The translations under genes were made by a program, and so were the position numbers. The notes below the pieces were generated by a model that saw only the letters and a program-made list of their open reading frames with translations, made no database searches and was not told the DNA's origin. Positions 3 through 22,898 of a stretch of 28,148 nt of DNA are shown piece by piece. The first letter of the stretch is position 1, and each line of letters opens with the position of its first letter. Source of the DNA: a virus; IMG/VR virus record IMGVR_UViG_3300030329_005417, positions 1 through 28,148 of that record; one strand, given 5' to 3'.

Positions 3-128
3 TGGGAATGGTTTTTATTAGGTTTATATGTATTAGAAAAAGCAATTAAACTAAGTCCATCTAAAAAAGATGATTTAGTGTGGGATATGGTATTAAAACC
101 TATAGTGGATAAGATTAAAGGAAAGTAA
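3..128 (+). CDS. 3' end of a small basic protein (partial)
   Basis: The window opens inside this gene. Reading from base 3 gives 41 codons and a TAA that shares its last base with the ATG of the next gene (TAATG). The visible tail begins with a short hydrophobic stretch (WFLLGLYVLEK), followed by a Lys-rich part ending DKIKGK. It could be the end of a small membrane-associated phage protein, but the N-terminus is missing and I do not assign a function. Position and strand put it in the virion operon. Confidence 0.6.
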   Translation, partial: WEWFLLGLYVLEKAIKLSPSKKDDLVWDMVLKPIVDKIKGK

Positions 129-17513: not shown

Positions 17514-17631
17514 TTTTCTCCTTTTTAATAATTTCGTTTTCTAGTTTTAGTTTGATTGCAAACTTTTTCATAGCTTCTTGTGGTGTTTCACTAGGCTTTT
17601 CCATTTTCTTTTTACATATTTCACAAATCAT
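17482..17631 (-). CDS. small CxxC protein (49 aa)
   Basis: An ATG at 17631 has GGAGA seven bases upstream and begins 11 bp before the methyltransferase stop. The 49-residue product starts MICEICKKKMEKPSETPQEA, one CxxC knuckle, and continues as a charged helix rich in Lys and Glu. It overlaps the resolvase start by 32 bp. With only one Cys pair a zinc site would need a partner chain or dimer. It resembles the other small CxxC gene beyond the resolvase (both begin with a CxxC four residues in), so the two may be paralogues. Function unknown. Confidence 0.6.
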   Translation of the reverse strand: MICEICKKKMEKPSETPQEAMKKFAIKLKLENEIIKKEKNVTSKQTKRK

Positions 17632-19126
17632 ATATTTTCTCCATAATTGCTTTTATAACAGGAACTGATACTGCATTACCACATTGTTTATATCTTTGAG
17701 TGTCTGATTGTCCATCTGTCCAATTATCAGGAAAACCTTGTAATCTCTCACATTCAATAGGTGTTAATCTTCTAATTTTAGACTTAACTTCTACTGCTTG
17801 TGCATTTCCTGAATCTAAACAATAAGTAGTACCATCTTCTTTTGATAAAACTCCTGATCCACCATCAACTCCACAACATTTTTTGTATAATTTTTTACTA
17901 CCACAATCACATACCTTTGTTAATGAAGGTCTATTAGGGTTTCTTAATTGTGTTGAATAAACTTTGTATAAACCTGTATTACCTGTGTCTAATGTTTGTG
18001 ATGTTCCTTTACTTGAATATACTCTTTTAGAAGATTCAAATTCATATTCTTTTTCATATATTTCAGTAACCTGTTTATCATAAGTACTATCAAATTTTAA
18101 CAATTTTTTTAATTGTAACCACACATCTGGAGATGGTATTGCTCTATATTTATCTTCTCTAAAATAATGTTCAACTTGTGTTTTAGGTAACTCTAATTCT
18201 TTTGCTATTTCACTTATTGTTCTGTCTTTATGTTTTTTAAGATATTTGTTTATTTGTTTAGGAGTGTCGTGTCTTCTTTTTCTAGCAATTAGATTAACAT
18301 CTTCAACTCTATATAATCCAGTTTTAGCACCCATACCACCACCATTTTTAATTGTCCTAGCACAAGATGTATCATACACTCTAGTAGCTTCTGAATCTTT
18401 TTCTATAACACCTATTTGATTTAATTTTATTAAATCCATATCACTATGATTCCCACCACTATGACCACCACCTGACAAACAAGCAGCATAGTCCTGATTT
18501 CTTTTTTTATTGCCTTTTTTGTCTATGATTTTAAACTCTGCATTTGTTTTTAACTTATTAATTTGGATGTCATTTTTTCCGATAGGAAATACTTTTCTTC
18601 CACTTGGGTTTCCATTATATCTGCCAAAGATAAAGATTCGTTCCCTGTTTTGTGGGAGAAACCACCTAGTATTAACCACTTGGCATTCAAGGGTATAATT
18701 AAGGTCGGCAAGAACTTTGTAGATTGTAGTAAATGTTCGTCTAGAGTCGTGGCTAAGTAAACCTTTAACATTTTCGAGAAGTATACAGGGTATGGGTTTT
18801 CCATTTTTAATGTAATCTTCGAGAATCCTTGCGATTTCAAAAAAGAGAGTACCTCTTGTGTCGTCAAATCCTCGTCTTTTTCCTGCAATACTGAAAGCTT
18901 GACAAGGAAATCCTCCTGTAAGCAAGTCAATTCTTGTCCTTGCGAGGTGTTCGTGTGAAACATTTTCAATTGCTCCCATTTTGATTGCATCTGGAAATCT
19001 CCTTTTAAATAGTTCATTAGCATACTTATCTATATCTGAATAGTAATGACGATTAACCTTAATACCTGCTTGTTTTATACCCAAGCTGAAGCCACCTATT
19101 CCACTAAATAAATCTAAATGATTCAT
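17621..19126 (-). CDS. dcm: C5-cytosine DNA methyltransferase
   Basis: 501 residues, full length. Motif I HLDLFSGIGGFSLG (3-16), motif IV PCQAFS with catalytic Cys75, motif VI LENV (117-120), motif VIII QNRERIF (159-165), motif IX RRLTPIECERLQGFPDNW (452-469) and motif X QCGNAVSVPV (481-490) are all intact, so it should be active. The variable region (~170-450) is long and composite: an HTH-like helix pair (TISEIAKELELPKTQVEHYF, 303-322), a SEC-C-like knuckle CDCGSKKLYKKCC (406-418), and several short look-alike units of the form TLxxGxxxGLYxV. No restriction enzyme gene is nearby, so a role in protection from host restriction is likely. The recognition sequence cannot be predicted. Confidence 0.95.
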   Translation of the reverse strand: MNHLDLFSGIGGFSLGIKQAGIKVNRHYYSDIDKYANELFKRRFPDAIKMGAIENVSHEHLARTRIDLLTGGFPCQAFSIAGKRRGFDDTRGTLFFEIARILEDYIKNGKPIPCILLENVKGLLSHDSRRTFTTIYKVLADLNYTLECQVVNTRWFLPQNRERIFIFGRYNGNPSGRKVFPIGKNDIQINKLKTNAEFKIIDKKGNKKRNQDYAACLSGGGHSGGNHSDMDLIKLNQIGVIEKDSEATRVYDTSCARTIKNGGGMGAKTGLYRVEDVNLIARKRRHDTPKQINKYLKKHKDRTISEIAKELELPKTQVEHYFREDKYRAIPSPDVWLQLKKLLKFDSTYDKQVTEIYEKEYEFESSKRVYSSKGTSQTLDTGNTGLYKVYSTQLRNPNRPSLTKVCDCGSKKLYKKCCGVDGGSGVLSKEDGTTYCLDSGNAQAVEVKSKIRRLTPIECERLQGFPDNWTDGQSDTQRYKQCGNAVSVPVIKAIMEKIYDL

Positions 19127-21379: not shown

Positions 21380-21536
21380 CCTTTTTATCCTTTGTTGGCA
21401 TCATACTTTTAAAATCTATAAATTGTCCTGGTCTAATATATTTAATGTTTTTTTTCTTAAACATCCTTACTGCTGCTCTGTTTAAAGCAACATATACACC
21501 ACTTGTTGTTTTATAATACTCAGGCTTTTTACTCAC
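21372..21536 (-). CDS. small basic protein (54 aa), GTG start
   Basis: GTG at 21536 has AGAGGA eight bases upstream, within the end of the HTH gene. The 54-residue product (starting with SKKPEYYKTTSGVYVALNRA) is strongly basic with a helix-turn feel (YVALNRAAVRMFKKKNI) and an Arg-Pro-Gly-Gln-Phe-Ile turn. Its TGA overlaps the following ATG region. Short basic proteins beside a Cro-like gene are often DNA-binding, but there is no recognised motif. Close packing at both ends supports the gene. Confidence 0.6.
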   Translation of the reverse strand: MSKKPEYYKTTSGVYVALNRAAVRMFKKKNIKYIRPGQFIDFKSMMPTKDKKDE

Positions 21537-21708
21537 TAAATAATTCCTCTTTAGATTTATTTAATACTTTAGCAATCTTATCCCAATGCCACCTCGGAAC
21601 ACCACTATCCTTCCACCTTATAACTGTTTGATAGTGGAGTCCGACTTTCCGAGATAGCCACGACAATGACCTTTCTTGATTCTTTAATTCTGTAATTATT
21701 TTATTCAT
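21529..21708 (-). CDS. Cro/C1-type helix-turn-helix regulator (59 aa)
   Basis: The ATG at 21708 begins MNKIITELKNQERSLSWLSR. An HTH is visible: helix SLSWLSRKVGLHYQTVIRW with the typical Gly turn, then a Trp-rich part (DSGVPRWHWDKIAKVLN) and KSKEEL, as in small Cro-like proteins that choose between lysis programmes. An in-frame ATG at 21750 would add a hydrophobic, unprotein-like leader and is rejected. Neither start has a ribosome site, so a leaderless message or coupling is possible. Inverted repeats upstream (21720-21777) and twin palindromes at 21891-21911 are natural candidate operators. Confidence 0.75.
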   Translation of the reverse strand: MNKIITELKNQERSLSWLSRKVGLHYQTVIRWKDSGVPRWHWDKIAKVLNKSKEELFSE

Positions 21709-21719
21709 ATATAAAGGAA

Positions 21720-21777
21720 GGACACCAACAACCAAAGGGGTTAACAACACATGTGATGTGAGGGGTCATTGATGTCC
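21720..21777. promoter_or_regulatory. imperfect inverted repeat upstream of HTH gene
   Basis: GGACACCAA (21720-21728) and TTGATGTCC (21769-21777) are complementary in 8 of 9 positions and sit just upstream of the regulator start. Between them is a perfect 8-bp palindrome, CACATGTG (21748-21755). The arrangement suits an operator bound by the adjacent HTH protein, or a stem on the leader RNA. Binding is inference. Confidence 0.4.
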
Positions 21778-21785
21778 TTAATTTT

Positions 21786-21911: not shown

Positions 21912-22091
21912 AACACATAAAACTATATAAAAACTTTATAGAATATATAATACTTTATGCTAGAAACACAAGTAAAAAATATAAATCAAAATTATAGTTG
22001 TAAATATAAAAATAAAGTGTTATTATTATATGCTTGTGGTTTGGGGAAAATTTACTTTTGGCACAAGATTTCAAAATATAAATAAGAATAT

Positions 22092-22408
22092 ACCAAAAGG
22101 GATGCTACATATATTCATGGAAACTTCTAAAGTCAGACTTCCAGTAGCTGTGCAGGACAATCTGTAATAACGAACTGACAAGGTTAAGTTAATTGATCTA
22201 AACTTAATCCTGGATATTACGAAAACTCAATGGTGGGTAATATTCTAGATAGATAGGGATTAGTATACTTCTATCTAGAACCTCAAATCTAATGGAAGGT
22301 AATAAATATTTTATAAGAAGTATAAAAGATTTCGCACTCTAACAACCCCTCGTTTCGTTGTTTCCTTAAAGGGTAGATATTGATCATGTCTACCCTTTTC
22401 TTTTTTTA
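22092..22408 (+). ncRNA. highly structured noncoding RNA of unknown class
   Basis: No gene of ordinary size lies on either strand, yet the + strand is dense in helices. Nested stem GCTAC/GTAGC (22104-22108 with 22144-22148) encloses TGGAA/TTCCA (22118-22122, 22139-22143) and ACTT/AAGT. Stem GTAATA/TATTAC (22164-22169, 22215-22220) encloses GGTTAAGTT/AACTTAATCC (22182-22190, 22201-22210, one bulge). An 11-bp perfect stem follows, TTCTAGATAGA/TCTATCTAGAA (22243-22253, 22270-22280), then AACAAC/GTTGTT (22341-22362), and a strong terminator closes the unit. G+C is visibly higher than around it. A repeat copy with TATAAAT lies just upstream; TTGGCA at 22058-22063 could be a -35. I compared it by eye with group I introns, tmRNA, RNase P and hammerheads and found no match. 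The exact 5' end is a guess. Confidence 0.65.
22368..22408 (+). terminator. rho-independent terminator of the structured RNA
   Basis: AAAGGGTAGA (22368-22377) and TCTACCCTTT (22389-22398) form a perfect 10-bp stem around an 11-base loop, followed by a T-rich run to about 22407. This is the strongest + strand terminator in the window. It has no protein gene upstream on that strand, which is what marks the preceding 300 bases as an RNA gene. Confidence 0.85.
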
Positions 22409-22479
22409 AAACACGAGTCAAAATTATAAATAGAAATATAAACCAAAAAAAGTTCAAAACACGAGCCAAAAATATAAAT

Positions 22480-22844
22480 GAGAAGATCACAAAATTTTGG
22501 TCATTTTTTGGGCAAAAAGTTGGATAAAATCAACCAGGAGTCAAATGGGGGGGTGGATGGGGTTAAAATTTGAATAGTAAAATATATTCTGATAAAATTG
22601 ATTATGTCTAATTATGTATTTTACATGGTATTATTTAAGCCTTAAAAACAAGCTAAAAAAAGCCTTAAAAATAGGCTTTAATTATTTATATCTATTTCCT
22701 GAAATTATTTAAAATGTTACTAATTATGTTAATATGTTAATAAGGTTATAGGGTTTATTTATCAAATTAGGCTTAAAAATAGGCTTTTTTAAAGGGTTTA
22801 AAGGTGTTTTAATATGTTTGTATACCTAGATAAAAAAAGGGCAT
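22480..22844. other. noncoding AT-rich spacer
   Basis: No credible gene is seen on either strand. The stretch holds a G-rich patch (GGGGGGG then TGGATGGGG, 22548-22562), a copy of a 23-bp near-repeat (22591-22613) whose partner lies at 25143-25165, and three occurrences of an AAGCCT/AGGCTT word (22637-22648, 22659-22679, 22767-22790) able to form hairpins. It separates the structured RNA from the leftward cassette. Confidence 0.6.
22655..22679 (-). terminator. hairpin with T-run, second leftward terminator
   Basis: AAAGCCT (22659-22665) and AGGCTTT (22673-22679) form a perfect 7-bp stem with a 7-base loop. Read leftwards the stem is followed by a further run of four T. It lies beyond the main terminator of the cassette and would catch read-through. 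Confidence 0.5.
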
Positions 22845-22870
22845 AAAAAAAGGGGCTAATTAAAGCCCCT
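22845..22870 (-). terminator. rho-independent terminator of the leftward cassette
   Basis: AGGGGCT (22851-22857) and AGCCCCT (22864-22870) make a perfect 7-bp GC-rich stem with a 6-base loop. On the - strand six further T follow directly. The other side has CTTTTATT, so it may work both ways. It lies 29 bp after the last cassette gene. Confidence 0.8.
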
Positions 22871-22898
22871 CTTTTATTATACATGAAGTATTTATTAT

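Follow-up and report, generated by a model that had tools for sequence, protein, structure and literature searches.

Several classes of non-coding RNA can be compared with the element described here. The large pseudoknotted RNAs GOLLD, ROOL and OLE have no known biochemical role, and GOLLD and ROOL are frequently borne by phages or prophages (PMC12286853, and in part general knowledge). A second group are RNAs with an A-B-A' template, namely telomerase RNA and the DRT10 non-coding RNA (ncRNA), in which a short, variable word occurs twice and matches within each RNA. The DRT10 ncRNA comprises 137 nucleotides (nt); its templates differ in sequence, with A and A' matching in each RNA, repeat synthesis needs A-A' homology, and the spacer B is functional up to ~10 nt but no longer at 20 nt (PMC12632851). 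Further related systems are the IS110 bridge RNA (seekRNA), a structured guide-like RNA with two sites, and the packaging RNA (pRNA) of phage phi29, likewise the product of a phage RNA gene. Here we describe an RNA gene on the plus strand of an incomplete contig of an uncultured phage (IMG/VR virus record IMGVR_UViG_3300030329_005417, positions 1 to 28,148; this whole stretch of 28,148 bases is called the window). In contrast to GOLLD, ROOL and OLE, the RNA is no Rfam member, is smaller, is found in two particular phage lineages and carries a duplicated, lineage-specific word. It differs from the DRT10 ncRNA and telomerase RNA in fold and size, in its longer words, placed 62-94 nt apart around a hairpin, and in having no reverse transcriptase gene, and from bridge RNAs in having the same word at both sites.

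Homologues are found in about 50 contigs of uncultured phages. One of these, L002 (IMG/VR contig 3300009603_002494), was reached via a relative of the neighbouring exonuclease; it is 82% identical over the stretch of the RNA, which it carries at the same location. The most surprising feature of the RNA, absent from the initial annotation of the window, is found in its 3' domain: a word of 6-13 nt occurs twice (copies R1 and R2), on both sides of a hairpin (P7), and this direct repeat stands at constant places in all full-length members examined. The word is GGTAATA in the window and, among others, TAGAGCGA, AAGGTTGTA, TACAAAGGTAAA, TATAAGGTTTAAA, AAGGATATAATAG, AGGAATTAAG, GGGATTAATA, TGAGAAATATAA, AAAAACCAGT, AAGGAACT or AATAAGCAAT in other members. 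Its sequence thus varies among phages, with roughly 20 different words in all, while R1 equals R2 inside each phage. The longest word common to both sites has a mean length of 9.5 nt within a phage versus 5.0 nt when sites are swapped between phages (0 of 5000 permutations), where the former value is somewhat favoured because the sites were located by the repeat itself, four of them by hand. The sites agree with the structure, with words of up to 13 nt. Between close relatives, concerted changes that alter the same base in both copies distinguish L129 (TAGAGCGA) from L134 and L166 (TAGAGCAA), L105 (AAGACAAG) from L080 (AAGGCAAG), and L162 (AGGGTTGTA) from L030 (AAGGTTGTA). Within the RNA, neither the upstream nor the downstream side offers the word a consistent pairing partner (z = -0.9 and -0.7), which speaks against pairing in cis. 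A search of the phage loci for other sense or antisense copies found none that is consistent, and the word was therefore rejected as an operator or iteron acting at other sites of the phage.

The hairpin between the copies is accompanied by a second version of one of its arms. An upstream arm, X, matches the 3' arm of P7 (X') as a word above chance (5.63 versus 4.52, 0 of 5000; 30 RNAs), such that the 3' domain has the order X - R1 - Y - loop - X' - R2. Y, the 5' arm of P7, may pair with either X or X', which would yield two mutually exclusive hairpins. The pairing X:Y has moderate support (complementarity z = 3.0) and reads CCAGA/TTTGG in L002. No other phage RNA known to us carries a freely variable word in two identical copies that flank a hairpin able to switch.

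The initial annotation had described a strongly folded RNA, and all stems it named, including the perfect 11-bp stem of P7, exist in the sequence. Folding energy was dropped as proof of an RNA gene: with z = -2.07 on the plus strand (4 of 100 shuffles as good) and z = -1.45 on the minus strand, the fold is mildly more stable than shuffled sequences, and a z of about -2 is too weak to carry the claim alone. The comparative evidence is strong: compensatory changes, a check that the annotation had itself proposed, are present both against L002 and across 28-30 phages, and an independent covariance model recovers the RNA of the window (see below). In the comparison of the window with L002 alone, the conserved element begins with P1 at 22033, and compensatory pairs are found in P1 (CCTGTG/CACAGG in L002), P3 (GCTAG/CTAGC), its inner hairpin (TGGAT/ATCCA), P5 and P7 (two pairs each) and a stem at 22310-22326.

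For the wider family, an alignment of 28 distinct RNAs (A7, window and L002 left out) was tested at 21 pairs of P1, P2 and the pseudoknot PK2. In this alignment 90.0% of the cells are paired and 17 of the 21 pairs have changes on both sides. The covariation score is 0.514 compared to 0.153 (standard deviation 0.017) for shuffled alignments, none of 500 of which reaches it, and slid structures do not exceed 0.131; the outcome is unchanged with the window added. Both-side changes occur in 8 of 8 pairs of P1 and 5 of 6 pairs of P2. PK2 is paired in 99% of the cells, with one of its pairs being AU (14), GC (11) or UA (3), and has homologous versions such as CTTTTAG:CTAAAAG, CTTTCAG:CTGAAAG, CTTTTTG:CAAAAAG and CTTGTAG:CTACAAG. 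In swap tests, which combine the 5' arm from one phage with the 3' region from another, the z-scores, which are inflated by kinship among the sequences, are 7.1 for P1 (30 RNAs), 10.9 for P2, 3.1 for the loosely bounded P3, 6.3 for the P5 region and 10.6 for P7. The distinct stems (GTGG/CCAC, ATGG/CCAT, GTTG/CAAC, GCGA/TCGC, TTGT/ACAA, TTCC/GGAA, GAATAT/ATATTC) represent many independent changes. The 5' domain of P1, P2, P3 and PK2 is hence kept by compensatory change beyond chance, as is generally required of a structured RNA.

Several further pairings were rejected. The candidate pseudoknot PK1 (GGTTTGGGG 22038-22046 with CCTCAAATC 22281-22289), a kissing loop between P5 and P7 (22193-22199 with 22257-22263) and a GTCAG:CTGAC pairing are unchanged or one-sided in the window and L002, and are not shown in the wider family. 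An alternative fold between TGGAAG at 22294 and CTTCCA at 22138, suggested in the initial annotation, does not hold either: TTCCA pairs and covaries with TGGAA in the hairpin inside P3, and TGGAAG is not kept in L002.

The RNA is almost certainly a free-standing gene. In 29 of 30 homologues, P1 is preceded at a distance of 2-12 nt by a TTGnnn-15..19-TAnnnT motif, where shuffled sequences lead us to expect 1.9; in the window this motif places the probable transcription start at ~22032. The RNA gene of ~310 nt proposed originally (22092-22408) therefore stands as a gene but not in its start, which moves ~60 nt upstream, since P1 and its pseudoknot strand lie there. The plus strand, opposite to both flanking operons, and the separate 10-bp terminator were recognized correctly; L002 has a hairpin and T run at the matching place. 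The conserved part of the RNA spans 22032-22304 in the window, about 270-290 nt. In several other phages the stop codon of a convergent gene is located within ~20 nt of R2, and in these the RNA probably ends shortly past R2. A Bacteroidetes-type promoter (TACTTTTG at 22053) was rejected, as the stretch is the loop of P1. The coordinates of all features are listed in Table 1.

Table 1. Features of the RNA gene in the window.
Feature	Position	Strand	Sequence and remarks
RNA gene, whole (inferred)	22032..22402	+	~370 nt; from L002 homology, model R2 match and terminator
Putative sigma70-type promoter	21998..22026	+	TTGTAA 21998-22003, 17 nt, TATTAT 22021-22026; read from sequence
P1 hairpin	22033..22067	+	CTTGTG 22033-22038 / CACAAG 22062-22067; GTTTGGGG and CTTTTGG in loop
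PK2 pseudoknot	22055..22099	+	CTTTTGG 22055-22061 : CCAAAAG 22093-22099
P2	22087..22116	+	GAATAT 22087-22092 / ATATTC 22111-22116
P3	22104..22148	+	GCTAC 22104-22108 / GTAGC 22144-22148; crosses P2 (pseudoknot)
Hairpin inside P3	22118-22122 / 22139-22143	+	TGGAA / TTCCA; compensatory in L002
P5 hairpin	22182..22209	+	GGTTAAGTT 22182-22190 / AACTTAATC 22201-22209
X, upstream arm	22210..22214	+	CTGGA; may pair with TCTAG 22244-22248 in place of P7
R1, first word copy	22236..22242	+	GGTAATA
P7 hairpin	22243..22280	+	Y = TTCTAGATAGA 22243-22253 / X' = TCTATCTAGAA 22270-22280; 11-bp perfect
R2, second word copy	22298..22304	+	GGTAATA, 62 nt past R1
Intrinsic terminator	22368..22406	+	AAAGGGTAGA 22368-22377 / TCTACCCTTT 22389-22398, then T run

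The homologues belong to two lineages. Applied to phage contigs retrieved through their portal protein, a covariance model built from the window and L002 only (model R1, a name unrelated to the word copies) matches first L075 (E = 0.012) and later L120 (E = 1e-5). Starting from these, nhmmer detects the RNA in over 20 contigs; it invariably lies on the strand that does not encode the portal, with the packaging-side genes on one side and the early operon on the other. A gapped pattern run on all viral contigs adds further members. Conversely, a model built without the window and L002 (model R2) finds the window at 22030-22125 on the plus strand (45.7 bits, E = 7e-8; the runner-up site scores 15 bits); it also recovers L002 (E = 1e-4) and reveals a further member, in L079. 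In lineage 1, the RNA is present in all 15 loci that extend 8.6 kb or more beyond the portal gene, and in 20 of 21 at a limit of 7 kb. One phage of this lineage, L165 (G049; 35,220 bases), has its portal gene divided over the contig ends (34624-35217 and 1-549) and is therefore probably a complete, circularly joined genome.

Lineage 2 (L159, L160, L161) has no tested protein in common with lineage 1. Here the RNA stands head to head with the gene of the terminase small subunit (phrog_51), near those of the portal (phrog_156) and the large terminase (phrog_38). Among 69 relatives of this small subunit gene, the RNA is found directly upstream, on the minus strand, in 18 that are among the nearest, and the more distant relatives have no RNA by model or by eye; the RNA has hence been gained or lost as a unit and is not obligatory for packaging there. 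A highly conserved non-coding block (TTAGAATGnGTGnGnGTnTT ... CCCCCC ... TAGGTTGAAA) is located ~300-500 nt upstream of the small subunit gene in L194-L258, also where the RNA is absent, and looks like a packaging (cos) site.

Neither the portal nor the RNA has a match beyond chance in 50,697 phage records, an exact 19-base pattern has five matches in 84,980 bacterial and archaeal genomes, all by chance, and a strict 20-base pattern finds the close relative as its sole match in viral contigs. The genome search with model R1, whose prefilter is less sensitive than nhmmer or cmsearch, found no match.

The assertion that the RNA fits no known class is borne out. At the gathering threshold, Rfam has no match in the window (best E-value in the RNA region 0.17, far below threshold) and none within the RNA of 17 homologue loci (L067/L075, L030/L143/L120/L096/L134 and ten more); group I intron, tmRNA, RNase P, hammerhead, GOLLD, ROOL, OLE and HEARO are among the families that do not reach it. 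A DRT2/DRT10-type template shares the matching short repeats A/A' that vary between homologues, as quantified above, but is encoded together with a reverse transcriptase, and no such gene (PF00078) is found in 18 long phage contigs, where the same search detects its control in three known genomes. The same 18 contigs contain no IS110 Transposase_20 (PF02371; the DEDD domain PF01548 was not searched for), and thus no recombinase beside the RNA as in bridge RNA systems, and no tyrosine integrase, which leaves an integrase-linked reading unsupported. No TnpB/IscB effector occurs among the scanned neighbour proteins (PF07282 itself was not searched for). A packaging RNA of the phi29 pRNA type, to which the position next to the terminase small subunit gene in lineage 2 would correspond, should be present wherever a relative retains the packaging genes, but distant relatives of lineage 2 keep the terminase gene without a detectable RNA. 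No paper describing this RNA was found in the open-licence literature. The data place the RNA outside the known families.

With respect to its surroundings, the RNA gene of the window sits between a small helix-turn-helix (HTH) regulator gene (21529-21708) and the GP88 operon. Structural genes occupy the plus strand at 0-16 kb, the early genes on the minus strand comprise a methylase, an SSB-like protein, a PDDEXK exonuclease and the HTH regulator, and the portal, minor head protein and small terminase genes lie at 25.3-28.1 kb. In the C-5 cytosine methylase (17621-19126, minus strand), ~200 residues of other sequence split the catalytic from the C-terminal part. A long inverted repeat beside the HTH gene (21717-21783; AAGGACACCAACAACC ... 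GTCATTGATGTCCTT), also present in L002 (5583-5512, minus strand) as GGACACCAGCAACC ... GGCTACTGGTGTCC, appears to be a second folded or operator-like element. On both sides of the RNA (window 21975-22014 and 22420-22490, L002 4900-5470), AAATATAAAT words are repeated together with CACGAG/CACCGA boxes; these iteron-like repeats are as such not seen in members other than the window and L002. A GC-rich hairpin at 22845-22876 (AAGGGGCTAATTAAAGCCCCTCTTTT), conserved in L002 near 4400, could terminate transcription both ways. In L030, L036, L034, L022, L047, L024 and L021, the RNA is directly adjoined by a divergent gene for a Sak-type single-strand annealing protein (PF06378), and members outside this sub-group have ERF (PF04404) nearby.

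Since the RNA has no conserved open reading frame and no sense gene downstream, it would act in trans as ribonucleic acid. We tentatively favour, at somewhat less than an even chance, a mechanism in which R1 and R2 alternate in pairing with the same complementary strand, and exchange of the pairing between X, Y and X' chooses the free copy. The 5' domain would serve as a scaffold for a host or phage protein partner, and the 3' domain would toggle between X:Y, with R1 in the loop, and Y:X' (P7), with R1 and R2 both free. This strand would pair with, or pass between, the two copies; candidates are transcripts or DNA of the host, copies of the phage RNA, and the template strand of the RNA gene. 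One strand pairing with both copies would leave the word free to change as long as the copies match. In coronavirus transcription-regulating sequences, the copies are identical because the complementary strand must pair with the second copy. Likewise, in telomerase RNA and DRT10 (A-A') the two copies are identical because the strand made on one must pair with the other (PMC12632851). On these precedents we hold alternate pairing to be likeliest. Several points weigh against it: no transcript has been seen; no target of the word is known; the support for X:Y is weaker than for P7; no protein partner gene is common to both lineages; and a protein that binds both copies would likewise keep them alike. 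The more specific version, in which a strand synthesised on or bound to one copy is passed to the other as the duplicated-arm hairpin switches, is unlikely. The phages encode no recognised enzyme that makes complementary DNA (cDNA).

Of the other explanations, an antisense or guide RNA fares best, although we regard it as rather doubtful. R1 and R2 would be two identical seeds (7-13 nt) directed at a single target in the host, in the manner of phage immunity RNAs or sponges, and the word would track its target. The length and variability of the word fit, as do the lack of a consistent copy in the phage itself and the occurrence in two lineages, suggesting a host-directed task. A guide, however, does not need its two copies to match strictly and to flank a single hairpin at a fixed distance, and no target was found (the host is not identified).

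It is less probable still that R1 and R2 are RNA or DNA sites for a fast-evolving phage protein, such as a regulator, recombination protein or replication initiator. Genes for a Cro/CI-type HTH regulator and for Sak/ERF annealing proteins adjoin the RNA in lineage 1, but lineage 2 has neither beside it, extra copies of the word are missing near the regulator and elsewhere, and the strong covariation of the pseudoknot favours an RNA.

Action at the own locus is very improbable. The R1 RNA would pair with the template strand of R2, resulting in termination or in a replication primer (R-loop). In favour of this, R2 is the sole phage DNA consistently matched by R1, the word is close in length to the hybrid of RNA polymerase (9-10 bp), R2 lies at the 3' edge, just before the stop of the convergent gene in several phages, and AT-rich repeats stand on either side of the window's RNA. 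However, most loci lack a GC-skew switch at the RNA, on which ground it was also rejected as a replication origin, the geometry of the polymerase makes access difficult, and the RNA of the window and of L002 ends at an ordinary terminator. Equally remote is a template on which a reverse transcriptase jumps between copies to give tandem-repeat cDNA, as for DRT10 A-B-A' or telomerase RNA: the signature is like that of DRT10, where A and A' match within each variable RNA (PMC12632851), but a host enzyme would be needed, and ~50-80 nt with a stable hairpin separate the copies here compared to the spacer limit of ~10 nt in DRT10.

The RNA constitutes a class whose fold is shown by covariation and which is present in all sampled long members of lineage 1 and in part of lineage 2. 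Its covariance model and about 30 aligned members can be used to search metatranscriptomes and hosts. The design rule of a freely changing, duplicated word around a switching hairpin is directly testable by altering one or both copies. If strand transfer between the copies were true, phages without a reverse transcriptase gene would possess a telomerase-like or discontinuous-copying device.
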